DNA of 64,000 bases from assembly GCA_022072165.1 (NCBI GenBank), contig JAJVIF010000003.1, positions 124,001 to 188,000 on the forward strand, read 5' to 3'. The notes under the pieces are model-generated. The model did no database searches. It was not told the DNA's origin and was given only the letters and a program-made list of their open reading frames with translations. Position 1 is the first letter of the stretch. The number at the start of each line of letters is the position of its first letter. Positions 36,582-58,107 of the stretch are shown one piece after another. The position numbers and the translations under genes are program-made. The stretch comes from a bacterium (GTDB lineage Bacteria; JAJVIF01).

Positions 36582-36746
36582 CGGCGGCGCAGCAAGCCAC
36601 GCCGCTGCTTCCACCCCGCCGGGACGAGGCGTCCCGGCACCCACCGACGCGGGCGTCGGAATGCCGGGCGACCGGGGGTCGCCCCTCCGGTAAAACGGCT
36701 GGTAGGTCGACCTCCAGGTCGATGGGCGTGGGGACTTCAGTCCCCC
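36582..36746. repeat. Hairpin-word mosaic, locus A
   Basis: A non-coding stretch between divergent genes. It holds GGGACGAGGCGTCCC (36621-36635), CCGACGCGGGCGTCGG (36644-36659), GGGCGACCGGGGGTCGCCC (36666-36684), TCGACCTCCAGGTCGA (36707-36722) and GGGGACTTCAGTCCCC (36730-36745), each a near-perfect stem with a 2-4 base centre. The same words recur at about 47.1 and 57.8 kb. Confidence 0.8.
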
Positions 36747-37617: not shown

Positions 37618-38955
37618 TTAAATCACGCCGCCAGCTACGGGCTTCCAGTACTCGCAGAGCTCGTAGAGGAGTAAAGGAGCCAGCAGATGTTCGCCACTGA
37701 CGATCGGATCCATCAACACGGTCTCCAGGGGCTGTTGATTGATCGTGCCACTGACTCGTAAGGTTTCGCGCAGCCCGTCTTCATCCGTGTCCTCGACCCA
37801 GACTGACAAGTCCATCAACGGTGGCTGATTCTGCCAGGTATTGAGCAGGGGTTCGGCGTACGGTGGCCGGTCAAATGCAGCCCCCGGATGGTTTCCGGCA
37901 TCGGCAAAGATGCGGGCTTGAAACACCATTGAACCAACTTCTGGATCCTCGATAATTTGCGCCTGCCCATGGGTATGACGAAGAAACGCGCGCTTCCACA
38001 GATAAAGATCTGGAGCCAGATCTCCAGACCCGGCTGAGGAGGAGCCAAAAAACCACTGGAAAGAGGAAGCAAACTCAAAGTCACGCCGGATGCGACGGCC
38101 ATACTCCTGGCCTGTTTCCGTGACCCCTTTGCGAAACGCCAGCTCCTGCGGCGATACGCTCCCCCCCAGGGACTCCAGGTCTGACAGCCGGGTTACCAGA
38201 GAATCAGCCACTTCGTTCCAGTGCCTCATATCGGCTCTGACTATTAGCAGTTCGGTAAACGTTTCCTCCAGGACGCGGCCGACCTCCAGGTCATAGGTCA
38301 GGTTCTCCAACAGGACAGGATCGAGCTGCCCAGATTCCTCGAGGTTGATGAGAAACTGCCGGTACTTGGAAAGCAGCGGGAGCAGCCGCACACCATACAG
38401 ACGTCGCGCCTGAACCATGCTCTCCCGACTGATCTCCTGGTAGCGAGGAGGTACATTCAGTGAACCTTCCCATGTGACGATCTCCCCTCGGGAATCCTTA
38501 AACTCTACGACTACCTTCTTGTAACCTTCCGAAGCAATTCGATAATCATGCTGTGCATCAAGCACAAAACTGCCGCCTTCCAGCGGAATCAGCGTATTCG
38601 GAAACAACGGAGTCGTCGTACCAGGCAGCATATCGTTGGTCGAAGTCATCACGACCCGCTCAGTTCGAAAACCTGTCAGCAGATCGGTCACCTTGACCAC
38701 GCAGGGTTCTTCCGCATCGAGGCCTTCCTGTGTCTCGATTATCCCTGCCAGCCGGAATCGCCCTCCAGGAATCAGCTCCCAGTCACCCGGCGCTTCAGTT
38801 ACCGTCAGCGTCAGACTCTGCTGCCCTCGGCGATCATCTCGCGTGGCCACGTTTTCTGCCTGGCGACAGCTTACGCTGCAAATCACGACGATAAGACCCA
38901 GGAGCAGCCGGGGAGTAACCCCGGACACATGTGCCAAGTGAGCGTGACGCTGCAT
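37618..38955 (-). CDS. Lipoprotein of duplicated CxxCxxxWC module, copy 1
   Basis: 445 residues. The ATG at 38955 has AGGAGAG upstream and opens a lipoprotein signal with LIVVICSVSC. Homologous to the lipoprotein at 48236-49501: both have an early beta-rich domain (SLTLTVTEAPGDWELIPGGRFRLAGI here), the helix QARRLYGVRLLPLLSKYRQF, LWKRAFLRHTHG, and an acidic loop VEDTDEDGLRETL that resembles a calcium-binding repeat. It has no enzymatic signature. It starts 25 bases after a small Cys-rich gene; the same pairing occurs at the other locus, so the two products probably act together outside the cytoplasm. Confidence 0.8.
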   Translation of the reverse strand: MQRHAHLAHVSGVTPRLLLGLIVVICSVSCRQAENVATRDDRRGQQSLTLTVTEAPGDWELIPGGRFRLAGIIETQEGLDAEEPCVVKVTDLLTGFRTERVVMTSTNDMLPGTTTPLFPNTLIPLEGGSFVLDAQHDYRIASEGYKKVVVEFKDSRGEIVTWEGSLNVPPRYQEISRESMVQARRLYGVRLLPLLSKYRQFLINLEESGQLDPVLLENLTYDLEVGRVLEETFTELLIVRADMRHWNEVADSLVTRLSDLESLGGSVSPQELAFRKGVTETGQEYGRRIRRDFEFASSFQWFFGSSSAGSGDLAPDLYLWKRAFLRHTHGQAQIIEDPEVGSMVFQARIFADAGNHPGAAFDRPPYAEPLLNTWQNQPPLMDLSVWVEDTDEDGLRETLRVSGTINQQPLETVLMDPIVSGEHLLAPLLLYELCEYWKPVAGGVI

Positions 38956-38980
38956 GATTCGCTCTCCTGTCTTTCCGAGT

Positions 38981-39487
38981 TTAGCAGGATAAAGCATCGA
39001 CTGCCTGCCTCTGATCGAGTTCCAGTGTTGTGTAGAGGTCTTCCGTCTGTTCACAAAGCCTGTCCAGATTCTCTCTGGTCTTCTTCCGGGTTGTCTCCGT
39101 CTGACCTGACAGGCCACTCAGATCGCTGTCATCGATTTCCTGCTTGCTGCTTCTGAACTGGCCTCCGACACAGATGATAAAACTGAACTGACAGTCACAC
39201 TCGAAGCCGATGATTGCGTCGCAGGTGTAGGTCCCCTGCAGTCCTGCTGCGCCGCACCAGTTCTTAAAGCAGCCGAGGCAGGCTAACTCGTTCGAATGGA
39301 GCCGATGCCTGGGAAAGCGACCGTCTGCTCCAAAACCAATGCATTGGGCAGCGCTTTCGACTCCCGCTCTATAACCATCGGCTTCAGAGTTGGGGTCGGA
39401 CTCACTGCAATGAATGTGATGAAGGCTCCCAAACAGTGCCATTCCCAGCAGGAGCAACTTCAATCTTGGGTGGAGTGTCGTTAGCAA
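38981..39487 (-). CDS. Small exported CxxCxxxWC protein, copy 1
   Basis: 168 residues with the TTG at 39487 as start, which lacks a clear SD; an internal TTG a few codons later is possible. A hydrophobic N terminus (LKLLLLGMALFGSLHHIHC) could be a signal peptide or lipobox. The core ACLGCFKNWC, then TCDAIIGFECDCQF and a late LDRLCEQ, match the small gene at 49486-49974 (ECWACLNSWC, SCETILALFC, LDDLCAE). The C-terminal half is charged and helical. Function unknown. A dinucleotide repeat lies about 43 bases upstream of the start. Confidence 0.65.
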   Translation of the reverse strand: MLTTLHPRLKLLLLGMALFGSLHHIHCSESDPNSEADGYRAGVESAAQCIGFGADGRFPRHRLHSNELACLGCFKNWCGAAGLQGTYTCDAIIGFECDCQFSFIICVGGQFRSSKQEIDDSDLSGLSGQTETTRKKTRENLDRLCEQTEDLYTTLELDQRQAVDALSC

Positions 39488-39529
39488 GGCTCAGCACCTG
39501 TAGGCTGACTTGGTGGTAACGTTGGATAT

Positions 39530-39548
39530 TCTCTCTCTCTCTCTCTCT
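39530..39548. repeat. Dinucleotide microsatellite (TC)9
   Basis: A perfect T(CT)9 run, read as GA repeats on the minus strand, 43 bases upstream of the TTG of the small Cys-rich gene. In this GC-rich window such a tract is unusual; length changes could alter promoter spacing. Confidence 0.85.
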
Positions 39549-39570
39549 TGTCAAGCCATACTTCAGAATT

Positions 39571-42210
39571 TTATACAGCCGCCTGAGCGACTCTTCTCTC
39601 CCGACGCCTAAGCACCAGCTTGTGCAACTCGCTGGCCAGCAGGACGCTCATTGCCAGCCCCAGCAACTCCAGCCACATCTCGCCCGAGACCGGGTGGATG
39701 CTCAGCACCTGCTGCATGACCGGCCAGTGCATCGCTCCGGCATGGACCAGCGTCGCGGTCAGGGTCCCCCACAACAGCAACGGACTGCGCAGGGGATTCA
39801 TCGTGAATGCCGACCGCAACTCCGACCGGCAGACACCGACCTGCACGTTTTCGAAGAGAATCAGCAGCAGCAACGTGTGATTGCGCGCATCGGTCAGGGC
39901 CATCCCTGCCTGCAACAGCAGGGTGAAGAGCCCCCAGCAGACGCCTCCCATGACCAGCCCGGAGAGGATCACCCGCTCGATCATCACCCGGTTAAACAGG
40001 GGCTCCTGCAGCGGACGCGGTGGGTGCTCCGCTTCATCCCCTTCCGCCGACTCGAACGCCAGCGCCACATCCTGGATCCCGTTCGTCACCAGATTGAGCC
40101 AGAGGAGCTGCACCGCATTCAGCGGGACCGGCGAGCCCACCACCATGGCGGTCATCACCAGCAGCACCTCTGCAACACTGGTCGAGACCAGCAGATGCAC
40201 CACCTTGCGGATGTTGTTGTACGCCACCCGTCCTTCTTCAACCCCATTCACCAGCGACGCAAAGTTGTCATCCGTCAGGATCAGCTCCGCCGACTCCCGG
40301 GCGATGTCGGTCCCCAGCTGTCCCATAGCGACCCCAACATGCGCCGCCTTCAGGGCCGGGGCATCATTCGCCCCATCCCCGGTCACCGCCACCGCTTCCC
40401 CGGACCGCATCAGGGTCTCGACAATCTGGAGCTTTTGCGCCGGATCGACCCGTGCAAAAATCCGCGCCCGCTGCACCAGCGCCGGCCACGTCGCCGGATC
40501 ACTCTCCCGCCAGGTCTGCCCCGTCACGACCTCGCTCTCGCTGGAGGCCAGCCCCAGCTCCCGCCCGATGGTCAGCGCGGTCTGTGGATGGTCGCCGGTA
40601 ATCATGGCGACATCGATGCCGGCGGTCTTGCAGCGCGCGATCGCCTCCGGGACTTCCGGGCGAATGGGGTCCTGCAGGGCGATGAGTCCCGCGCACTGCA
40701 ATCCCTGTGGCAGCGCTTCCGGACGGTCCGGCGCGCTGTCCACCACCCCGCTACTCAGCGCGAGGACCTTGTACCCCTGCGCCGCCAGTTCCTCGACCCG
40801 CTCCCGCAGCGATGCCGTCACGTCCTCCGGATCGCTGCAGGCTGTCAGGATCACTTCCGGTGCGCCCTTGGCATATGCACGCACGGTGGCTCCATCACGG
40901 ACCCAGACCGCCGCACCCGCCCGCTCTGATTCATAGGGCAGCCGCTCCTGGATCTCCGGCAACGACTCTCCTGTCACCCCTGCCTGCTCCGCGAGGCGGA
41001 GTCCGGCCAGATCCACTGCATCACCATGTTCGACCCAGGTGTCATCTTCCCGGGTGCGAATCGCTTCATTTACCAGCGCGCCCGCCAGGACCAGCCGTTG
41101 CATGGCGGGATCCTCCAGCAGATGCTCCGGACGATCGAGTCGTCCATCAGGGAGCACAATCCGCCGGATCGCCAGCTGATTCTCTGTGAGGGTGCCGGTC
41201 TTGTCGGAGGCGATGAATGTACAGGAGCCCAGCGACTCCACGGCCACCAGTCGCCGGACAATCACCCGTCGCCGGCTCAGCCGGTGGACCGCCACCGCCA
41301 GCGCGATGGTGATTGCCACCGGGAGTCCTTCGGGAATCGCCGAGACCCCCAGCGCGATGGCGAAGATGACGACTTCATAGAAGCTCTGTCCCTGCCAGAG
41401 CCCCAAGGCAATGACCACCACCGCCGCCATCCCGACCAGCAGCGACACCTGATGCGCGAAACGTTCCATCCGCTGCACGAGTGGCGGCTTCTCACTGGTG
41501 CCGCGTCCGAGACTTGCCGCCAGTTGCCCCAGCACGGTATGGGTCCCGGTGGCGATAACAACGCCGCGGCAACGACCTGCGGTGAGCAATGTCCCGGAAT
41601 AGAGCATCTGCTGCTGATCACCGAGCCCGCCGTCAGCCGTCCCGGCCTCCATCGCGACTTTGCTGACCGCCATCGACTCACCCGTAAGCAGCGACTCATC
41701 GACCCGCAAGTCATCCGCCTGCAGCAGTCGCAGGTCCGCCGGGACCCGGTTCCCCGACTCCAGCACCACGACATCGCCCGGGACCAGCAGCGCGGCGAGG
41801 GTGTCGCGGATCTTCCCCGCCCGCAGCACTGTCGCGTGAGGCTCTGTCAGCTGGCGCAGCGCCTGGGCGCTCCGCTCCGCGCTGAATTCCTGAATCACAC
41901 CCACGACCACATTCAGCAAAATCACCAGGGCGATGAAGCCGGCTTCCATGTGCTCGCCTGCGATCATCGCGAGCAAAAAGGCGACACCGATGACATAGGT
42001 GATGGGGTTTTGCAATTGACGCCAGGCCAGCTGCCACCACGCCAGCGGAGGGGGCTCCGGCAGTTCGTTGCGACCATAGCGCTCCAGGCGCGCAGTCGCT
42101 TCCGCGTCGGTCAGGCCGACAGGCGTGGCCTCCAGGACCGCCAGGAGGTCCGTGAGGGGCACCTGCTGCAGGTTGGGCGTTACGACCGCATCGACGTCAC
42201 TGCTGGGCAT
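39571..42210 (-). CDS. Cation-transporting P-type ATPase (P2-type)
   Basis: 879 residues. All hallmarks are present: N-terminal cation-ATPase domain (LEATPVGLTDAEATARLERYGRNELPE), LTGES, PEGLP in the fourth membrane helix, phosphorylation motif DKTGTLT near residue 335, KGAPE for nucleotide binding, TGDHPQTA and TGDGANDAPALK. The C terminus has the usual six-helix bundle. The sixth helix reads NLVTNGIQDVALAFE rather than the NxxTD of calcium pumps, so the ion is uncertain (Ca, Na, K or Mg are possible). CATAAT lies 6 bases before the ATG at 42210. Confidence 0.93.
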   Translation of the reverse strand: MPSSDVDAVVTPNLQQVPLTDLLAVLEATPVGLTDAEATARLERYGRNELPEPPPLAWWQLAWRQLQNPITYVIGVAFLLAMIAGEHMEAGFIALVILLNVVVGVIQEFSAERSAQALRQLTEPHATVLRAGKIRDTLAALLVPGDVVVLESGNRVPADLRLLQADDLRVDESLLTGESMAVSKVAMEAGTADGGLGDQQQMLYSGTLLTAGRCRGVVIATGTHTVLGQLAASLGRGTSEKPPLVQRMERFAHQVSLLVGMAAVVVIALGLWQGQSFYEVVIFAIALGVSAIPEGLPVAITIALAVAVHRLSRRRVIVRRLVAVESLGSCTFIASDKTGTLTENQLAIRRIVLPDGRLDRPEHLLEDPAMQRLVLAGALVNEAIRTREDDTWVEHGDAVDLAGLRLAEQAGVTGESLPEIQERLPYESERAGAAVWVRDGATVRAYAKGAPEVILTACSDPEDVTASLRERVEELAAQGYKVLALSSGVVDSAPDRPEALPQGLQCAGLIALQDPIRPEVPEAIARCKTAGIDVAMITGDHPQTALTIGRELGLASSESEVVTGQTWRESDPATWPALVQRARIFARVDPAQKLQIVETLMRSGEAVAVTGDGANDAPALKAAHVGVAMGQLGTDIARESAELILTDDNFASLVNGVEEGRVAYNNIRKVVHLLVSTSVAEVLLVMTAMVVGSPVPLNAVQLLWLNLVTNGIQDVALAFESAEGDEAEHPPRPLQEPLFNRVMIERVILSGLVMGGVCWGLFTLLLQAGMALTDARNHTLLLLILFENVQVGVCRSELRSAFTMNPLRSPLLLWGTLTATLVHAGAMHWPVMQQVLSIHPVSGEMWLELLGLAMSVLLASELHKLVLRRRERRVAQAAV

Positions 42211-42270
42211 CTCTTCATTATGCGCACTGGCCTACGAGCAGTCTGCGCCAGCTGTCACACCGCACCGCGG

Positions 42271-43416
42271 TCAGCCCCGGATGCCAGCCGCCCACTGCTC
42301 CTGCGTGGCGCGTCCCTTTTGCGCAGACTGCAATGCGGTCAGACTGATTATTGCGTGCGGACTTAAGGACCGCACCTGGAAGATCACCACCGCCAGCGCC
42401 TGCGTCAGGTCGCGGCGGAGTCGCGCGTTGTACGGCAGCTTCAGGACCTGACGCGGTCCCCGCAGGATGATGCGATGGCGCCAGTAGGGAGCGGTGGCAT
42501 CCCCCGCGAAGGCGGGGAGGGCCATGATGATCTGACGTGGATACAGCCCGAACCACGCCCGCGGGTCGAACCATTGCAGGAGCACCGTGTAGAGCCACTG
42601 CATCCAGCGACCATAACGCTCCCCCAGATAAAGGGCGTAGCCAAGGCCGTTCAGCCGACGGTCATCGGTGATCTCGGTGATGTTCTGGAAGTGCAGCACA
42701 CGCCGTCCTCCCCACCCCATCAGCATCACTTTGTCCCGTCCGACATGTACATAGGTCTGGACATAAGGACGCACCAGCAGCAACACCAATGTTCCCAGCG
42801 CACCACCGATGGCCACCAGTCGCCACCACCAGAGCCCCGGTGCCCAACTCAGCAGCATCCCCGCAAGACCGTACATCGCGACACCGATCATCCCCAGCAA
42901 GCCCAGCAGAATGCCGAGGTTCGCCAGGTTCACCGGGATACGCCGCATCTGGCGCATGTGCGGTCCCAGGTCCAGGAACCAGCGGGGGAGATCGAGGGTC
43001 CGGATCAGCGTGTCTATGCCCAGATGAAAGCCGGGCATCCCAGGCGCGACGAATTTCGCCCCGAGGTCCTCGCCAATCTTGATGACTTCTGCCGCCCGGA
43101 CCTCCTCCAGCGGCCCCCCACATTGCGGACAGTTCCGCTCGGCCAGCGCCGGTAATGAGATGGTCCGCTTACAGGCGTCACACCGAAAGACCAGCTCCCG
43201 GGTCTGCGAGAAGACCGGAAACTCCCGCAGCAGGTCGCTCATCACGGTCTCGCGACGCTGTGCTTCTGCCACCCGCTGCTTCGGCAGTTCCACCATCAGG
43301 CCATCGCGACGCCATTCCATAAGAACCGCGGCGATTTCATCCGGACGAGGCGCACCGGCGTTCGCCGCTTCCTGATTCGCGGTCAGTGGGCCAAAGATGA
43401 ACGAAAAATCAGCCAT
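42271..43416 (-). CDS. Zinc-ribbon membrane protein
   Basis: 381 residues. A helical N terminus is followed by a zinc ribbon (RCDAC...NCPQC, residues ~78-98), then two or three membrane helices (LGILLGLLGMIGVAMYGLAGMLL; LVAIGGALGTLVLLLV) and a C-terminal soluble domain that may have a PH-like beta fold (RDKVMLMGWGGRRVLHFQNITEITDD). No enzymatic motif was seen. The start lies 14 bases after the stop of the upstream CsgG-like gene with a GGAG, so the two form an operon. Role unknown; a membrane-linked sensor or adaptor is possible. Confidence 0.75.
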   Translation of the reverse strand: MADFSFIFGPLTANQEAANAGAPRPDEIAAVLMEWRRDGLMVELPKQRVAEAQRRETVMSDLLREFPVFSQTRELVFRCDACKRTISLPALAERNCPQCGGPLEEVRAAEVIKIGEDLGAKFVAPGMPGFHLGIDTLIRTLDLPRWFLDLGPHMRQMRRIPVNLANLGILLGLLGMIGVAMYGLAGMLLSWAPGLWWWRLVAIGGALGTLVLLLVRPYVQTYVHVGRDKVMLMGWGGRRVLHFQNITEITDDRRLNGLGYALYLGERYGRWMQWLYTVLLQWFDPRAWFGLYPRQIIMALPAFAGDATAPYWRHRIILRGPRQVLKLPYNARLRRDLTQALAVVIFQVRSLSPHAIISLTALQSAQKGRATQEQWAAGIRG

Positions 43417-43430
43417 GCCAGGCTCCGCTG

Positions 43431-44720
43431 CTACAGCTCTGCGGTGTCAGTCGGCTCGTCGATCGGGACCGCCAAAAGGCCGACCCGGACCAGCTGGCCC
43501 TCTTCCAGGGACTCGACCACAGCGACACTGAATCGCTCATACACCTTGATCAGCCGGATACGTCCTGCCCGGGCCTGATGCTCGCCGAGCAGTGTCCCTT
43601 CCAGATCATAGACCGGCTCCCGTTGCTCCAGTTGCAGCAGATCCCCGACCGTCCAGCCTTCCTGCGCTCCGGCATCGAGAAACACTTCCCCGCCATCAAT
43701 CCGCACGACCCGGGGAAAGAAGTCCCCCGGCGGCACCAGGTCCGGTACCGCCCGTTCTGGTTGCGGGACTGGTGGCACCACCAGCGCCGGGGCGAGCCCC
43801 CGGACCTGTCGCAGTTCGGCGAGCTGCTTGCGCAGGTCGTGACCTCCCTGCACCGGTTGCGCCAACCCCGTTTCGAGTGCCGCCTCGGCTTCGGTCAGCC
43901 GGCCCAGGGCTTCATACACCATCGCCAGATTGCCATGGAGGTCCGCCGCTCCACGGGGATTGTTGGTGAGGGCCTCGGTGAAGAGTTGCAGCGCCCGTTC
44001 CAGGTCGCCAGCTTCGGCGGCTTCAATGCCCGCTCTGGTGGTGGCGTCGGCGTTCCGCTCCGGACGGAAACTCCGCTTCATCTGCAGGGATTGCGGCGCG
44101 AAGCGGGCCGCTCCCTTTGCCACCACCTTGGGCACGATCTTGTCCAGCAAACTCTCGGCCCCGGTGCTGTTGCGCCAGCCATAGTCCTCCTGCCAGTAGT
44201 TCGAGGTGCTTTCCGCCACCCGGGCAGAGCCCAGCACCTGACGGGTACTCACATGCACTGCCCGCAGATCCAGCTCGATGCGGGCGCGCTGCGACTCTGT
44301 CCGGATATAGACCGTCCGGTATTCCCGCTCCTGCACCTGACGATAGCGGCCGTCATCATCCCGACGCTCCCGCCAGACCCAGTACTCCCGCTGCACCGGC
44401 GTGGTGCCGTAATCCGTACTGACCTCGACCCGGGCGGTCCCGGTGATCTCCACCACAATGCCCGACGCCTTTTCAGCCTCGCTCAACAGCCGCGCATCGA
44501 CCAGTCCAGTGCTCCCCAGGGCTCCCGCCAGGTCTCCCGCGAGTGTGGTCCCATCCAGCACCCGGCTCCCCTCGATGCGTAGCGGGCTGACACCGATCGG
44601 GCCGGCAAGTCCGACATCGAATTCCGGAGCCTGAATGCGGGTCCAGGTGAAAGCGGTCGCGGTGGCAGGGAAGATTCCAACCACCAGCAGGACCAGCCCG
44701 GTCATCAGCCAGGTTCGCAT
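43431..44720 (-). CDS. CsgG/FlgT-like exported TPR protein, copy 1
   Basis: 429 residues. I start it at 44720 because this gives a signal peptide (LMTGLVLLVVGIFPATATAF) and CATAGT lies 6 bases upstream; the frame extends further but into unrelated sequence. The first ~200 residues resemble the CsgG/curli-assembly type fold (RIELDLRAVHVSTRQVLGSARV, DKIVPKVVAKGAARFAP). A TPR follows (AAEAGDLERALQLFTEALTNNP; GNLAMVYEALGRLTEAEAALE), then a beta-barrel-like C terminus (VDGG/VFLDAGAQEGWTVGDLLQLEQREPVYD, IRLIKVYERFSVAVV) like the FlgT C-terminal domain. Probably periplasmic. Function is inferred only. Confidence 0.7.
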   Translation of the reverse strand: MRTWLMTGLVLLVVGIFPATATAFTWTRIQAPEFDVGLAGPIGVSPLRIEGSRVLDGTTLAGDLAGALGSTGLVDARLLSEAEKASGIVVEITGTARVEVSTDYGTTPVQREYWVWRERRDDDGRYRQVQEREYRTVYIRTESQRARIELDLRAVHVSTRQVLGSARVAESTSNYWQEDYGWRNSTGAESLLDKIVPKVVAKGAARFAPQSLQMKRSFRPERNADATTRAGIEAAEAGDLERALQLFTEALTNNPRGAADLHGNLAMVYEALGRLTEAEAALETGLAQPVQGGHDLRKQLAELRQVRGLAPALVVPPVPQPERAVPDLVPPGDFFPRVVRIDGGEVFLDAGAQEGWTVGDLLQLEQREPVYDLEGTLLGEHQARAGRIRLIKVYERFSVAVVESLEEGQLVRVGLLAVPIDEPTDTAEL

Positions 44721-44770
44721 GGAGCAACTATGCCATGAGTGCGGGGTCGTGCGAGACCCCAGGCGACTGG

Positions 44771-45295
44771 CTACTCGCCCTGAATCAGGGTCTGGACCCG
44801 TTCCAGCGGCTCCCAGCCAAGGAGCGCGAGGCTGTTGCCCTGCTGCAGCGCGAGGTCCGCGATCCGCCAGGCCATCGCCTGCCGGACCTGGCGGTCCTGC
44901 ACATCGGCGATGTCGATGAGATACCGCTCCAGGGTCCGCAGATGCTCCCCGATGGCGTAGCGCATCACCTCGTCGGTGGCCATCTCGCTGATGGGAGGCA
45001 GTGGGATGCTGGTGGCGATGGGGTCCGCTTCCAGGGCTTCGGCTCCGGGCAGATGCTGCCACTCGGAGAGGCGCACGACCGAGGCACCGCGCCAGGTGTC
45101 GAGCAGGTCGACATACTCGAAGGGGGCGTCGGTGCGGAACGTGGGGTCTTCGACAATGTCGTGCAGCGTCTCACTCAGGATGGTCTCCTGGGTGATGAGG
45201 CGGGTGAGGCAGTCGGCCTCCGAATGTGCCGCGAAGGCAGCTGCGGGAGCCAGGGTGAGCAGGATGCAGGTCGTGGATGTGATGACTGAGCGCAC
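44771..45295 (-). CDS. Small exported protein of unknown function
   Basis: 174 residues. The start is placed at GTG 45295, which follows a perfect TATAAT by 7 bases and begins a signal peptide (SVITSTTCILLTLAPAAAFA); the frame could be opened at 45388 but that adds a non-signal extension. The mature part is helical and acidic, with LEADPIATSIPLPPISEMATDEVMRYAIGEHLRTLERYLI. Not recognised. It lies between two CsgG/FlgT-like paralogues and may serve the same envelope process. Confidence 0.7.
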   Translation of the reverse strand: MRSVITSTTCILLTLAPAAAFAAHSEADCLTRLITQETILSETLHDIVEDPTFRTDAPFEYVDLLDTWRGASVVRLSEWQHLPGAEALEADPIATSIPLPPISEMATDEVMRYAIGEHLRTLERYLIDIADVQDRQVRQAMAWRIADLALQQGNSLALLGWEPLERVQTLIQGE

Positions 45296-45302
45296 GGGGT
45301 CG

Positions 45303-45308
45303 ATTATA
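45303..45308 (-). promoter_or_regulatory. Perfect -10 box TATAAT, leaderless GTG start
   Basis: TATAAT on the minus strand ends 7 bases before the GTG at 45295, in a 49-base gap. No convincing -35 is seen. Confidence 0.6.
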
Positions 45309-45344
45309 TCTGACGCTCCACCACGTATCGATGACACCAGCTCG

Positions 45345-46643
45345 CTACCCCGACGTATCTGCGAGCTTAGCCACCAGTCCCAATCCAAGCTCCTGCCCTT
45401 CCCTGATCTCCAATACCTGCCCGACAGAGAACTTATCCTCGACTGTAATCAGTTTGACACGCGCGATTTCTGACTCCCGGTGCCCCAGCACTTCACCGCT
45501 CAGCCCCTGCACAGGAACTTGTTTCACAATTCTGACAATTGCGCCGACTTGCCAGCCCCGATTTTGTCCACCATCAAAGGTGACTTCCGCTGAAGTGAAA
45601 TCCACTACCCGCACGGTCTGATCTGTCTCAGGCTTGGCGCTATGACTGTCCTTTCGGACTTTGCCCCGATACGCCCGCAACAGTTGTGACTCATGATCTT
45701 TGAGTTCCGCCTTCAGTTCAGAGGTGCGTAGTCCTTCACGAATTGCGACCAGGGCCTCGTCGTACTCTCCCATTGCGTCATAGACGATGGCGAGATTACC
45801 CCATTCGAAGGCTCGCCCCACAGGGTCAACCTCGATAGAGGCTTTGAACAACCGCACCGCCTGGTCGTAGTTTCCCGCCTCAGCAGCATCCGCAGCCCGC
45901 TGCGTCACTTCATCCCGCGCGCGACGGGGACGCCACAAGTGTTCCGCCTCAATGCGATAGGGAGAGAAACTGACGACTGCCATGTCCAGCACTTTTGGCA
46001 GCAGGGTCTCCACCATGCCGGACTGCGGCGTGCCTGGATCGTCGCCCTCTTCCCATTCAGTTTCATGCGTCGCAGTGCAGTGATGCAATCCCAGTTCGTT
46101 GCCTGTCGACAATTCGATCGCCCGAAGCTCCAGTGTGAGTTCCATCTTCCGAGACTCCGTGCGGATCGGCACCTGCACTGTCTCAACATACGGCACTTGC
46201 TTTGCCCGACCATAGATGTCGTACTCCGTACGGTAAATCGTTCGCCGTTCAGACTTGTTCCGCTGACCGAACTTCACACTGTAACTCGGCGTGACTCGTC
46301 CCAGAATGATGACCTGCGCATCCTGCAACCCGGGCATGGAGCGCAGCGCCCGTACATCGGACTGATACGGCACTACTATGCTTTGGACCCCGGGCAGCAG
46401 TTCCAGAAACCCTTCAGCTTCCAGTTCCCGACGATACCGATCCGCGATGCGGTACCCATCCGCCCAGCCCGGCTGTCCAGACTCAAAAGCAACGATGCTA
46501 ACTCGCCCCACAACTGAGATGTCAGTCTCTGGCGCCATTGTCCGCTCGAAGCGTAGTGCCCACGCAGGTGTAACCAGGACAAGCAGCCAGCAACAAAGGG
46601 CCAGTGCTCGTAATCCGCAATAGAGATGAGTGCATCCGGGCAT
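45345..46643 (-). CDS. CsgG/FlgT-like exported TPR protein, copy 2
   Basis: 432 residues. The ATG at 46643 has GAGGA upstream and gives a signal peptide (LRALALCCWLLVLVTPAWA). Paralogue of the gene at 43431-44720: both have a tyrosine/arginine-rich strand segment (TIYRTEYDIYGRAKQVPYVETVQVPIRTESRKMELTLELRAIEL), LPKVLDMAVVSFSPYRIEAEHLWRP, a TPR (AAEAGNYDQAVRLFKASIEVDP; IVYDAMGEYDEALVAIREGL) and the C-terminal beta domain (RGWQVGAIVRIVKQVPV, RVKLITVEDKFSVGQVLEI). The first strand block, SVVGRVSIVAFESGQPGW, fits the CsgG fold start. Probably periplasmic; partner unknown. Confidence 0.7.
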   Translation of the reverse strand: MPGCTHLYCGLRALALCCWLLVLVTPAWALRFERTMAPETDISVVGRVSIVAFESGQPGWADGYRIADRYRRELEAEGFLELLPGVQSIVVPYQSDVRALRSMPGLQDAQVIILGRVTPSYSVKFGQRNKSERRTIYRTEYDIYGRAKQVPYVETVQVPIRTESRKMELTLELRAIELSTGNELGLHHCTATHETEWEEGDDPGTPQSGMVETLLPKVLDMAVVSFSPYRIEAEHLWRPRRARDEVTQRAADAAEAGNYDQAVRLFKASIEVDPVGRAFEWGNLAIVYDAMGEYDEALVAIREGLRTSELKAELKDHESQLLRAYRGKVRKDSHSAKPETDQTVRVVDFTSAEVTFDGGQNRGWQVGAIVRIVKQVPVQGLSGEVLGHRESEIARVKLITVEDKFSVGQVLEIREGQELGLGLVAKLADTSG

Positions 46644-46837
46644 GTCCGTGTCCTCGCGACTCCCTGAAAGGTGGTGCCTTGAGTACAGGATAGCCTCAAG
46701 CTGAGTCCTGATCCACAGCCAGGAGGCCAAGAGGGACCCGGCTACAAACTTCTTTGCTCCCTGATATCCCCTCTATCTCGCACGCTGCTGTGTCACCGCA
46801 CGCCGCCCAGTGAGCTGACTACTCCCCTGCTCTTCCT

Positions 46838-47420
46838 TTGAGTCTGTTTGTCGCAGAAGGGGCGACCTCCTCGTCTAAGCGAGGACCAGGCTTAGGACCA
46901 TACTCGGGGAGCTTGAGCGGCGCAACAATCCATGCCCTCACGTTGGACGGCAGCGCCTTGAAAGAAAGCGCACTTCTGCCGGAGACCGGGTCTTCAGACC
47001 CGGGACGTGATGTGTGGTCCAGACGGATCTATGCGCTGGCGTGTCGGGGACTGAAGTCCCCGGACCCATCGACCATGAGGTCGACCCACCAGTCTCATGG
47101 TCCCCCCCCGCTTGCGGGGGTGGTCGCGCAGCGACCGGGGGCTTTCGGAGTGCCAGGCCGCAGTCCATACCAGAGAAAATTCGCAATGCACTCAACTCGG
47201 AGGGGCGACCCCCGGTCGCCCGGTGCCCCGACGCCCGCGTCGGTGGGGGCCGCGACGCCACGTCGCGACGGGCAAGACGCAGAAACTATGAGCGGGGTGG
47301 CAAGCCACGCCGCTACGGTCGCTTCATGAGTTTCCGGATCGACATCACCAGCCATCGACCGCTGCACATTGGACCGTCGCAAACGCACTGATCTGCACCA
47401 GCGGTAGCGGCGTGGCTTGC
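46838..47420. repeat. Hairpin-word mosaic, locus B
   Basis: The 801-base gap between genes has no credible coding frame. It holds CCGGGTCTTCAGACCCGG (46986-47003), GGGGACTGAAGTCCCC (47046-47061), TCGACCATGAGGTCGA (47069-47084), CCCCCGCTTGCGGGGG (47105-47120), GGTCGCGCAGCGACC (47122-47136), GGGCGACCCCCGGTCGCCC (47203-47221), CCGACGCCCGCGTCGG (47228-47243) and CGCGACGCCACGTCGCG (47251-47267). The last three are in the reverse order and orientation relative to loci A and C, and the 47 bases before them match locus C reversed. Confidence 0.8.
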
Positions 47421-47444
47421 TGCGCTGCAGTCCGACAAACCCAG

Positions 47445-48167
47445 CTACAGCTCCCGGATGATGCCCCGCTGCCAGCAGTCGACCCGCTTGCGGAAGTACC
47501 AGAGAAAGCACCAGAAGTTCCACGCCGTCCGGAAAAACTTCAGTGATGACGCCCCCGCTTCCCGCTTGCTGTGCGTCACTTCCACCTCGACATACCGTAC
47601 GCCCTGCAGATGGAGCCGCAGCATGGTTTCAGTCGGATTCGAGTAGCCATTCGACTCCACCGACAGCCCCCGCAGCAGGTCGCCCTTCACCAGCTTGTAC
47701 GCGCAATTGCAGTCCCGGACTCGCACACCAAACAGCAGCCGGACAATGAGATTCAGCGCACGGTCCGCCACCACCCGGGGCAGGGCATCCTGCTTGCGAT
47801 GCCGGTACCCCAGCACAAGATTCACGCCATGTGTTGCCTGTGCCTGGACCAGACGCTCCAGTTCTTCGGGAGCGAACTGCAGATCGGAATCAATCGTAGC
47901 GATCCAGTCGGCATCGGTGGCGCGGATGGCATCCCGCAACGCAGCGCCATATCCCTGGTTCTGCCCCTCATGCGTGATGACCCGCAGCTCGGGATACTCC
48001 GCCTGTAAGCCCGCGAGGATCTCCCCGGTCCGGTCCCGCGAGCAGTCGTTGCACACCACCACCTCCCCCTGCAGACCCGCGGCCCGCAATGCAGCCACGC
48101 ACCGCCGTACGGTCTCGGCGATGATGGCCTCTTCGTTGTACGCCGGCATGCAGAAGGCGACACGCAT
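47445..48167 (-). CDS. Family 2 glycosyltransferase
   Basis: 240 residues, GT-A fold of the dolichol/undecaprenyl-phosphate sugar transferase type: MRVAFCMPAYNEEAIIAETV at the N terminus, VVCNDCSRDRTGEIL, GYGAALRDAI, the metal-binding IDSDLQF near residue 95, and a C-terminal hydrophobic helix region (FFRTAWNFWCFLWYF). It probably transfers a sugar to a lipid phosphate at the inner membrane. I start at 48167 rather than the ATG at 48179 because TATGCT ends 7 bases upstream of it. Confidence 0.9.
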   Translation of the reverse strand: MRVAFCMPAYNEEAIIAETVRRCVAALRAAGLQGEVVVCNDCSRDRTGEILAGLQAEYPELRVITHEGQNQGYGAALRDAIRATDADWIATIDSDLQFAPEELERLVQAQATHGVNLVLGYRHRKQDALPRVVADRALNLIVRLLFGVRVRDCNCAYKLVKGDLLRGLSVESNGYSNPTETMLRLHLQGVRYVEVEVTHSKREAGASSLKFFRTAWNFWCFLWYFRKRVDCWQRGIIREL

Positions 48168-48186
48168 CGGGGAGAGCATAACGAAC

Positions 48187-48215
48187 CCGCCCCCGGAGGG
48201 AACCTCCGGGGGCGG
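48187..48215 (-). terminator. Intrinsic terminator-type hairpin, repeated copy 1
   Basis: A 13-base perfect stem (CCGCCCCCGGAGG with CCTCCGGGGGCGG, 3-base loop) 20 bases after the stop of the minus-strand lipoprotein gene. No strong T-run. A 35-base identical copy, including this hairpin, is at 50042-50076. Confidence 0.65.
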
Positions 48216-48235
48216 ATTGGGTGGCTGAGATCCTG

Positions 48236-49501
48236 TCAGCGGGAAAAATAGTCTGAGTACTGAAGCGCTTCCAGGGGAGTGACCAGATGACCATGACTGG
48301 AGAGAAATTCCGCCGGAATCGCATTGGCGAACGGGGCACCCTCGATCGAGCCATCAAAGGTCAGTTGATCCAGGAGGCCATCTTCATTCGTGTCGAGCAG
48401 TGTTACGACCAGTTCAAAGACGGGTGGATTCCCGCTGGCCGTACCGGCGACTGGCTCGACAAAGGGCGGAACTTCCGGACAGCAGTTGCTTGCCATCGTG
48501 CCGGTGTCCGTGCGAATCTCAGCGCGGTACTCTAACCCACCTTCGACCGCTGACCACTCCGCCCGGGGAAATGTGTGCCGGTAGAACGCCAGTTTCCACT
48601 TTTGCATGTCAGGGGCTTCCGTTCCGGGTCCACCACACCAGCTGCAAATCTGGTCGGATCGCCGCGCTGAGTAGCCAATCGCCAGGATCGTGTGCTCAGT
48701 CGCTCCTCCCAGATCGATGTGCTTTCGGAAGTGCTGCTCGGCGACTGGCAACGAAGCAAGGTCCCCGTTGAGTTCTGTGACACGTTGTTCCAGCGCTTCA
48801 CCAATAGCCTTCCACTGGCCCTTGTCAGCATGCCGGATCATCGCATCCAGATAGAAGTGCTCCAGGTCTCGTAACAGTGCCAGGTCATAGTCCAGATGGG
48901 CGAAGGCCGTCTCATCGATGCCGCGTTCAACGGCCACCTGGGCAAACTCGCGGTACACCGCGAACAACGGGACCATCCGGACACCGTACACCCGACGTGC
49001 CTGCGCTTCTTCCGCCCATGACCAACCATTGAAACTGGGCGAGGAGACCACGTGTCTGATCCACTGTTCCTCGTTGCCCTGGGCATCCTGGGCTATCAGA
49101 GTCAGTCGCTGGAACCCTTCCCCGATACGCCATGCCCCGGTGAAGTCCAGGCGAAACTGACCAGTGCTTGGGTCGAGGGATAGGGGGCCTGATAGTGGCG
49201 AGCTGATCGTGATCGGCAGTTCCTGAGAAAAGCCCGCCACAACTTCTTCGACTCGCAGCCGCAGCGAATTGGGGTTCTGCGGATTTATTCCCTGGCTCGC
49301 CGTAACCACACCTTCGAGAAGAAACGCGCCACGCTCTGCAGTGGACCATTCCGCCGGGGCTTGGGAGATGGTGAAGGTGATCTCTCCCGCCGCAGACTGA
49401 CGGGGAGTTGACGGAGGATTCTCAGTACGGTTCCCGCGACCACATCCTGTCACCAGGAGCCCGATACCAAGGACAAGTAGAAAGGTTATGGGGCGATACA
49501 A
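48236..49501 (-). CDS. Lipoprotein of duplicated CxxCxxxWC module, copy 2
   Basis: 421 residues. TTG start at 49501, 6 bases after GGAGGT; the product opens with a lipoprotein signal (ITFLLVLGIGLLVTGCGRG). Homologous to 37618-38955: EEAQARRVYGVRMVPLFAVYREF, AEQHFRKHIDLGGATE, KWKLAFYRHTFPRAEWS, and the acidic loop LDTNEDGLLDQLTF. This copy has additional Cys pairs (ICSWC, SNCC). The start overlaps the end of the small Cys-rich gene by 16 bases, so translation is coupled to it. Confidence 0.82.
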   Translation of the reverse strand: MYRPITFLLVLGIGLLVTGCGRGNRTENPPSTPRQSAAGEITFTISQAPAEWSTAERGAFLLEGVVTASQGINPQNPNSLRLRVEEVVAGFSQELPITISSPLSGPLSLDPSTGQFRLDFTGAWRIGEGFQRLTLIAQDAQGNEEQWIRHVVSSPSFNGWSWAEEAQARRVYGVRMVPLFAVYREFAQVAVERGIDETAFAHLDYDLALLRDLEHFYLDAMIRHADKGQWKAIGEALEQRVTELNGDLASLPVAEQHFRKHIDLGGATEHTILAIGYSARRSDQICSWCGGPGTEAPDMQKWKLAFYRHTFPRAEWSAVEGGLEYRAEIRTDTGTMASNCCPEVPPFVEPVAGTASGNPPVFELVVTLLDTNEDGLLDQLTFDGSIEGAPFANAIPAEFLSSHGHLVTPLEALQYSDYFSR

Positions 49502-49974
49502 TTCGGTACCTCCGTCGTTTGGTGGACTTGCATGTAGTTATTGATCTGTCTGTTGGCTTCAGCGCACAGATCATCCAGCGCTTGCGTCAGTCGGGGGGGA
49601 ACCTGGCCAGACCACGGATCCTTGAAGAATGTCTCGGCATTCTCACGATTGCCAAAGCCGTTGGCAACGGGATCGAGCCCAGGGCACATGACATATTGCA
49701 GAGTGTCGCTGCAAAACAGCGCCAGGATAGTTTCACAACTGAGAAAGAATGCCGGGTCCGTGCACCAGCTGTTGAGACAGGCCCAGCACTCAATTCCGCT
49801 ACCAGGTGCAGTATTCAGGGCGTTCCGCAGACCAGCGATGTAGTCTCTCGGATTCCGCGTGATCACACCACAACCCGACTGCAACATCGTACTGGCGAGG
49901 GCAAGAGTTAGCAGAAAGCCAATCGCAAGCCTGTGGCCTGTGGCAGAAACAGGCTGCAATCTGTGTTGCTTCAT
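49486..49974 (-). CDS. Small exported CxxCxxxWC protein, copy 2
   Basis: 162 residues. ATG at 49974 after AGGAGGT with 4-base spacing. The N terminus is a signal (LAIGFLLTLALASTMLQSGC, with a lipobox-like LQSGC). The core is ECWACLNSWC followed by SCETILALFCSD and MCPGLDPVANG, then a charged helix LTQALDDLCAEANRQINNYM. Same Cys spacing as 38981-39487. The eight or nine cysteines could form disulfides or bind metal; no enzyme fold was recognised. Confidence 0.78.
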   Translation of the reverse strand: MKQHRLQPVSATGHRLAIGFLLTLALASTMLQSGCGVITRNPRDYIAGLRNALNTAPGSGIECWACLNSWCTDPAFFLSCETILALFCSDTLQYVMCPGLDPVANGFGNRENAETFFKDPWSGQVPPRLTQALDDLCAEANRQINNYMQVHQTTEVPNCIAP

Positions 49975-50046: not shown

Positions 50047-50075
50047 CGCCCCCGGAGGGAACCTCCGGGGGCGGA
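50047..50075 (-). terminator. Intrinsic terminator-type hairpin, repeated copy 2
   Basis: Same 13-base stem as at 48187-48215, 30 bases after the stop of the 493-residue lipoprotein gene on the minus strand. Confidence 0.65.
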
Positions 50076-57487: not shown

Positions 57488-58067
57488 GGTCGGAGACCAG
57501 GTCTTTAGACCTGGGACGGGTCAGAGCGGCGTGGCTTGCTGCGCTGCTCTGAGTTTTCGGGTCTTGCCCGCCGCGACGAGGCGTCGCGGCACCCACCGAC
57601 GCGGGCGTCGGATCACCGGGCGACCGGGGGTCGCCCCTCCGAGTTGAGTGCATTGCGATTCTTCTCTGCTATGGGCTGCGGCGCTGGCGCTGCCTGGCGA
57701 AGACACCCTAAGAACCACGAGCGCCGCAGTCGGAGCCCAGGTCTTCAGACCTGGGACGAGGAAAGCTGTCGAGGCGCAACAATTTATCTGGGCTTCCGGT
57801 ACTTCAGCTTTCAAGACCACTGCGCGAACTTCCGTACGGCCAGTTCATCACGTCCCAGGTCTAAAGACCTGGTCTCCGGCGCAGGCGTCGGACCACCGGG
57901 CGACCGGGGGTCGCCCCTCCGAATCCTGTCCTCATCCAGCAATGCTTAGACAGCACTCCGTTGGCGTGTCGACCTCCGGGTCGATGAGTCGGGGAACTTC
58001 AGTCCCCAACACGCCAACGCATTCATACGTACGGACCCCACATCACGCCCCAGGTCTGAAGACCTGG
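57488..58067. repeat. Hairpin-word mosaic, locus C
   Basis: The 649-base gap has no credible gene. Words: CCAGGTCTTTAGACCTGG (57497-57514), CCGCGACGAGGCGTCGCGG (57571-57589), CCGACGCGGGCGTCGG (57596-57611), GGGCGACCGGGGGTCGCCC (57618-57636 and again 57898-57916), CCCAGGTCTTCAGACCTGGG (57736-57755), CCAGGTCTAAAGACCTGG (57855-57872), TCGACCTCCGGGTCGA (57969-57984) and CCAGGTCTGAAGACCTGG (58050-58067). The central dinucleotide varies (TT, TC, AA, GA) while the arms are kept. Confidence 0.8.
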
Positions 58068-58107
58068 TCTCCGGCTGCGGACTGGATACAAAGGGAGAGG
58101 TAAGCGA

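Follow-up and report, generated by a model that had tools for sequence, protein, structure and literature searches.

A 64,000-nucleotide stretch of a bacterial genome (contig JAJVIF010000003.1, positions 124,001 to 188,000; hereafter the window) encodes two pairs of adjacent genes, each consisting of a gene for a small, cysteine-rich exported protein followed by a gene for a larger lipoprotein of a family that we designate LP-A. Analysis of the whole genome suggests that most copies of LP-A probably belong to phase-variable pairs of envelope proteins that are switched by changes in the length of tandem repeats at their starts. These repeat-bearing promoters, the principal feature of the system, are absent from an earlier sequence-only reading of the window, which had described a duplicated two-gene module whose two partners might be linked by a covalent bond, a metal or a disulfide.

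Tandem repeats at the starts of the gene pairs

The genome of the window (G000; 3.26 Mb, four contigs, 99% complete) contains six LP-A genes: the two window copies (units W1 and W2) and four others labelled by contig, at C4:113158-114426 (unit C4), C2:54566-55753 (C2a), C2:552546-553772 (C2b) and C1:1389765-1390955 (C1). The duplicated module of the earlier reading is therefore genuine as a pairing, with a copy number of six per genome and not two; the open reading frames, gene order and strand that it gave for both window loci are correct, as are the 16-base overlap of the genes of pair 2 and the kinship of the two lipoproteins (30% identity over 408 amino acids, E = 1e-48). Reading upstream of every copy, a small exported gene directly precedes LP-A, separated from it by 25, -16, -1, 17, 29 and -13 nucleotides in the six units, and most starts have a Shine-Dalgarno sequence. 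The small proteins of the window match each other at E = 2e-4, and a profile of their family finds every one of the six, with E values from 2e-50 to 4e-6. A lone LP-A relative in G003, a genome of the same class and another taxonomic family, has the same gene order with a stop-start overlap of 1 nucleotide, in the form TAATG that is also found in unit C4. The co-occurrence that the sequence-only reading had proposed as a check extends to seven of seven LP-A genes, and searches of four genomes of the class, at the sensitivity applied, found no small gene without its lipoprotein partner. Among 385 sampled genomes LP-A occurs only in G000 and G003, with none in the 381 genomes outside the class, and scans of genome contigs and viral sequences and tblastn against plasmids and phages found no relatives. 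Low-scoring matches in G001 and G002 look like other lipoproteins, aligned at the signal peptide only.

Five of these six units, which were chosen by homology and not by their repeats, have tandem arrays. In three the array lies between the -35 and -10 elements: TTGACA-(AG)9 in W1, TTGACA-(AG)7-CGAGAG in C2a and TTGACA-(AG)8-TATTGT in C2b. Unit C4 has (GT)10-TAAGAT upstream, and C1 has TTGACA-N17-GATAAT followed by a perfect 10-mer array of 4.4 copies in the leader. The (AG)9 of W1 is the sole dinucleotide array of at least five units in the 64-kb window, and its candidate -10 element is either GAGAAT (spacer 15) or GAATAT (spacer 17).

Such arrays are rare in this genome: AG repeats of at least six units occur at seven loci and GT repeats of at least six units at four, 11 in 3.26 Mb, where a dinucleotide Markov model predicts fewer than about one per repeat type. 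LP-A units account for four of these loci; ten, these four included, are at modules of a small cysteine-rich protein and a lipoprotein, and nine abut TTGAC(A/T/G). The post hoc probability that four of 11 would fall by chance into the roughly 110 bp ahead of six genes is about 6e-13. Six of the seven arrays away from LP-A are located between TTGAC and a -10-like hexamer, ahead of operons in which a small exported protein with 15-18 cysteines precedes a lipoprotein, often in the series small-lipoprotein-small-lipoprotein. The lipoproteins of these operons (LP-B; about 310-390 amino acids, no Pfam match) have no homology to LP-A beyond the signal peptide. A (TG)8 array six bases ahead of the TATAAT of a small cysteine-rich plus LP-B module in G002, from another taxonomic family of the class, indicates that this genome is not alone in having the arrangement. 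Loci L118, L119 and L120 consist of alternating small cysteine-rich exported genes and LP-B genes behind single dinucleotide-array promoters. The seventh array outside LP-A, (CA)6 at L121:5289-5300 (G000:C2:574788-574799), lies just ahead of the start codon of a further lipoprotein gene and is without TTGAC.

The association also holds in a sample drawn independently of repeats, comprising 20 evenly spread 20-kb stretches (400 kb) that were searched for modules by a fixed open reading frame rule, loosened once after some modules had been seen. This sample contains four modules of a small cysteine-rich protein and a lipoprotein, and only three perfect arrays (a dinucleotide repeated six times or more, or a 6-24-mer repeated four times or more), all of them at the starts of three of these modules. 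Modules found independently of repeats therefore have an array in eight of ten cases (5/6 LP-A, 3/4 sample), and the density of four per 400 kb leads to an estimate of about 30 modules, or a few tens, in the genome, with a wide error. One of the three arrays, at L107:4373-4440 (G000:C1:1804372-1804439), is a perfect 17-mer array of 4.1 copies at the start of a small cysteine-rich gene that is followed by a lipoprotein gene; each unit includes a Shine-Dalgarno-like AAAGGAG and an ATG, 17 is not divisible by 3, and the array is likely to be a translational switch that would change the start frame.

Predicted properties of the two proteins

Both partners are predicted to be lipoproteins with a signal peptide: LP-A has an invariant cysteine at the expected lipobox position (C20), and the small family has one (C35) in all copies, within a lipobox that by eye is canonical in six of seven and atypical in W1. 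The small protein, earlier taken to be the exported partner of a lipoprotein, is itself a predicted lipoprotein. Both lipoprotein motifs that were noticed at the outset, QARR(L/V)YGVR and D(T)(D/N)EDG, are present; the acidic loop, as D-x-D-x-D-G, is conserved in all six copies of the genome and missing from the G003 relative. Likewise, CxxCxxxWC and a later cysteine are common to the small proteins of the window, while the small protein of unit C4 (88 amino acids) lacks this core and keeps the C-terminal DLCxEAxRQ...C. As a rough indication only, a low-confidence structure model suggests that LP-A may have strands between residues of about 50 and 155 and helices between about 160 and 310, and then strands with the D-T-D-E-D-G loop near the C-terminus.

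The proposal that the partners are joined covalently or by a disulfide is not upheld, because LP-A has no conserved cysteine beyond the lipidation cysteine, and the cysteines that follow the lipidated one in the seven LP-A-partner small proteins number 10, 8, 2, 10, 10, 10 and 8, all even, which suggests closed internal disulfides. What survives of the earlier envelope-system reading is an undescribed two-gene envelope module. Even parity was considered as a general rule, but only nine of 16 LP-B partners conform to it, compared with seven of seven LP-A partners, and it was not applied to the former. There is no conserved histidine in the small family, and a VKOR-type oxidase gene is present in the genome. 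Three Omp85 matches in the genome indicate an outer membrane.

In agreement with the initial failure to recognise a known family, profile searches found no convincing match above curated cut-offs in Pfam, NCBIfam, PHROGs, PADLOC or PDB sequences, and the window proteins had no match above noise in Pfam-A or NCBIfam. Weak profile matches to FAM176, RepC, NUP214, Spindle defective 2 and Imm72 were dismissed as noise; the Imm72 match, to one LP-B protein, was sub-threshold (E = 0.024).

A possible switch and its alternatives

In the nine arrays that are linked to TTGAC, the spacers to the best -10-like hexamer are 15, 16, 17, 17, 17, 19, 19, 21 and 25 bp, a mixture of productive and unproductive lengths rather than a uniform 17, which is consistent with mixed on and off states across the modules. 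The pathway that we propose proceeds as follows: slipped-strand gain or loss of one dinucleotide unit would shift the distance between -35 and -10 by 2 bp; movement of the spacer into or out of the productive range of 16-18 bp would turn the pair on or off, the 10-mer array in the leader taking the place of the spacer array in unit C1; the small protein and LP-A would be translated together and, after export, would reside in the envelope of a bacterium with two membranes; and the same switch would drive the second set of modules with the unrelated family LP-B. The cells of a clone might then differ at random in which of the estimated few tens of pairs they display, with a likely benefit from variation of the surface (phage receptors, grazers, neighbours, adhesion). 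The sequences establish the gene family, the gene order and the placement, rarity and recurrence of the arrays, whereas slippage in living cells, on/off expression, surface exposure, joint action of the two proteins and the benefit are inferred.

Several observations weigh against this account. Neither W2 nor the G003 unit has an array, and further array-free modules are found at L116:3370, L119:9752 and L100:1579; the -35 element of unit C4 is poor, and several -10 boxes match the consensus at 3-4 of 6 positions only. The lengths of the arrays are known from a single assembly, and the statistic on the 11 arrays was framed after the data had been seen. AlphaFold models, built from two-row alignments, are poor (predicted local distance difference test scores of 36 and 44), so that what is said of the partnership and the fold rests on sequence.

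One alternative is that these are ordinary, constitutively expressed pairs of paralogous lipoproteins, with arrays that are inert spacers copied along with the promoter during duplication of the module. The flank TTGACA(AG)n that is common to C2a, C2b, W1 and C1_1545 is what duplication of a single promoter would give. We nevertheless regard this explanation as unlikely: the array unit varies among modules (AG, GT, CT, 10-mer, 12-mer, 17-mer), indicating repeated origins of the arrays at one and the same site; spacers of up to 19-25 bp are not expected to be kept by a constitutive promoter; and arrays also accompany an unrelated lipoprotein family and occur in a second taxonomic family of the class. 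Quite unlikely, in our estimation, are pairs for effector-immunity or self-recognition, in which the small cysteine-rich protein would act on neighbours, the lipoprotein would protect, and switching would change compatibility groups. Such a role would suit the many divergent copies, the small cysteine-rich exported partner and the coupling of the two genes through the TAATG overlap in C4 and G003, but the LP-A small proteins are predicted to be lipid-anchored and not diffusible, there is no toxin-domain or defence match, and joint switching of the small and large genes would remove toxin and immunity at once.

It is very improbable that the pairs serve as accessory parts of a machine resembling a type IV pilus, in which they would modify or anchor neighbouring pilins. 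Two of the six units (C2a and C1) do adjoin genes of pilin-like proteins; the other four have no pilin-like gene within about 8-10 kb, and with about 34 pilin-like sites genome-wide in about 13 clusters, two such neighbours are only weakly unexpected. The pilin-like proteins beside these two LP-A units (L017:11162-17128 and L015:10393-11562) are about 375-450 amino acids long and contain FTLIELLVVITIIGILAAIALPNYxKAKDKAKEVQ.

Most known cases of phase variation through slippage of repeats come from pathogens and commensals adapted to a host. The principle of the switch is already established. In the hifA/hifB fimbrial promoter of Haemophilus influenzae, (TA)9-11 between -35 and -10 alters the length of the spacer (PMC2651432, PMC3899988) and thereby controls surface structures, as proposed here; that system has one divergent pilus promoter with a TA unit, whereas here there are many promoters with AG, GT or CT arrays and pairs of a small cysteine-rich protein and a lipoprotein. 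The variable surface lipoproteins Vlp of Mycoplasma hyorhinis and Vmm of M. mycoides are switched by promoter repeat length, Vmm in dinucleotide steps in the promoter spacer and Vlp in a multigene family whose members each have an array (PMC10502178). A similar type of switch is proposed here; it acts there on single genes in wall-less host parasites and here on two-gene units in a two-membrane bacterium, with at least two lipoprotein families under one kind of switch. Spacer length also controls an envelope protein in the case of Neisseria meningitidis porA, through a poly-G promoter spacer (PMC3899988), but there the array is a homopolymer and only one gene, for a porin, is concerned. As far as searched, the protein families, the two-gene plan and the genome-wide set of modules appear to be undescribed, no prior description of any of them having been found in the databases and the literature searched, with partial coverage of the latter.

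A broader version of the phase-variation reading, which we put forward tentatively and judge to be possible rather than probable, is that this lineage carries, across its genome, a few tens of two-protein surface modules that switch independently and draw on two or more unrelated lipoprotein families, every family having a small, disulfide-rich partner of its own, and that promoter-spacer, leader and start-codon switches evolved repeatedly at the same place, forming a combinatorial generator of surface identity in a bacterium that is not known to cause disease in a host. A sparsely sampled bacterial class would then appear to possess a repertoire of envelope pairs dedicated to switching by repeats, a sign that selection on the surface is strong and fluctuating even outside the usual setting of host immunity. 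The combination of TTGAC, a dinucleotide array, a small cysteine-rich gene and a lipoprotein gene offers a genomic signature for finding the system elsewhere.

The two window loci and their surroundings

The features of both pairs are collected in Table 1. Pair 2 is flanked on both sides by identical 35-nucleotide direct repeats, 1.86 kb apart, that contain hairpins; the hairpin core has two copies genome-wide, allowing at most two mismatches, both at pair 2. Recombination between these copies would delete pair 2.

Table 1. Coordinates of the two LP-A pairs and associated elements in the window
Feature	Position	Strand	Details
Pair 1 small protein	38981..39487	-	168 amino acids; TTG start; CxxCxxxWC; atypical lipobox HIHC (predicted), 10 Cys thereafter
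Pair 1 lipoprotein LP-A	37618..38955	-	445 amino acids; ATG start at 38955; Shine-Dalgarno AGGAG; 25-nucleotide gap to small gene
Pair 1 repeat promoter (candidate)	39524..39554	-	-35 TTGACA (39554-39549), then (AG)9, then candidate -10
Pair 2 small lipoprotein (predicted)	49486..49974	-	162 amino acids; lipobox QSGC, 8 Cys thereafter; Shine-Dalgarno AGGAGG
Pair 2 lipoprotein LP-A	48236..49501	-	421 amino acids; TTG start at 49501; Shine-Dalgarno GGAGG; 16-nucleotide overlap with small gene
Hairpin GCCCCCGGAGG-TTC-CCTCCGGGGGC, perfect	50048..50072	-	Upstream of pair 2; core of 35-nucleotide direct repeat
Second hairpin, identical to that at 50048..50072	48189..48213	-	Downstream of pair 2

Between the two pairs lie adjacent genes of paralogous exported tetratricopeptide repeat proteins (43431-45062 and 45345-46730), another local duplication; one of the two paralogs has a weak CsgG-like stretch. 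An interspersed intergenic repeat with a core of about 75 bp is found in the window at 36615-36689, 47198-47272 and 57525-58075; its copies are 85-93% identical, longer in places, and recur on several contigs (L014, L110, L112, L114, L118, L121).

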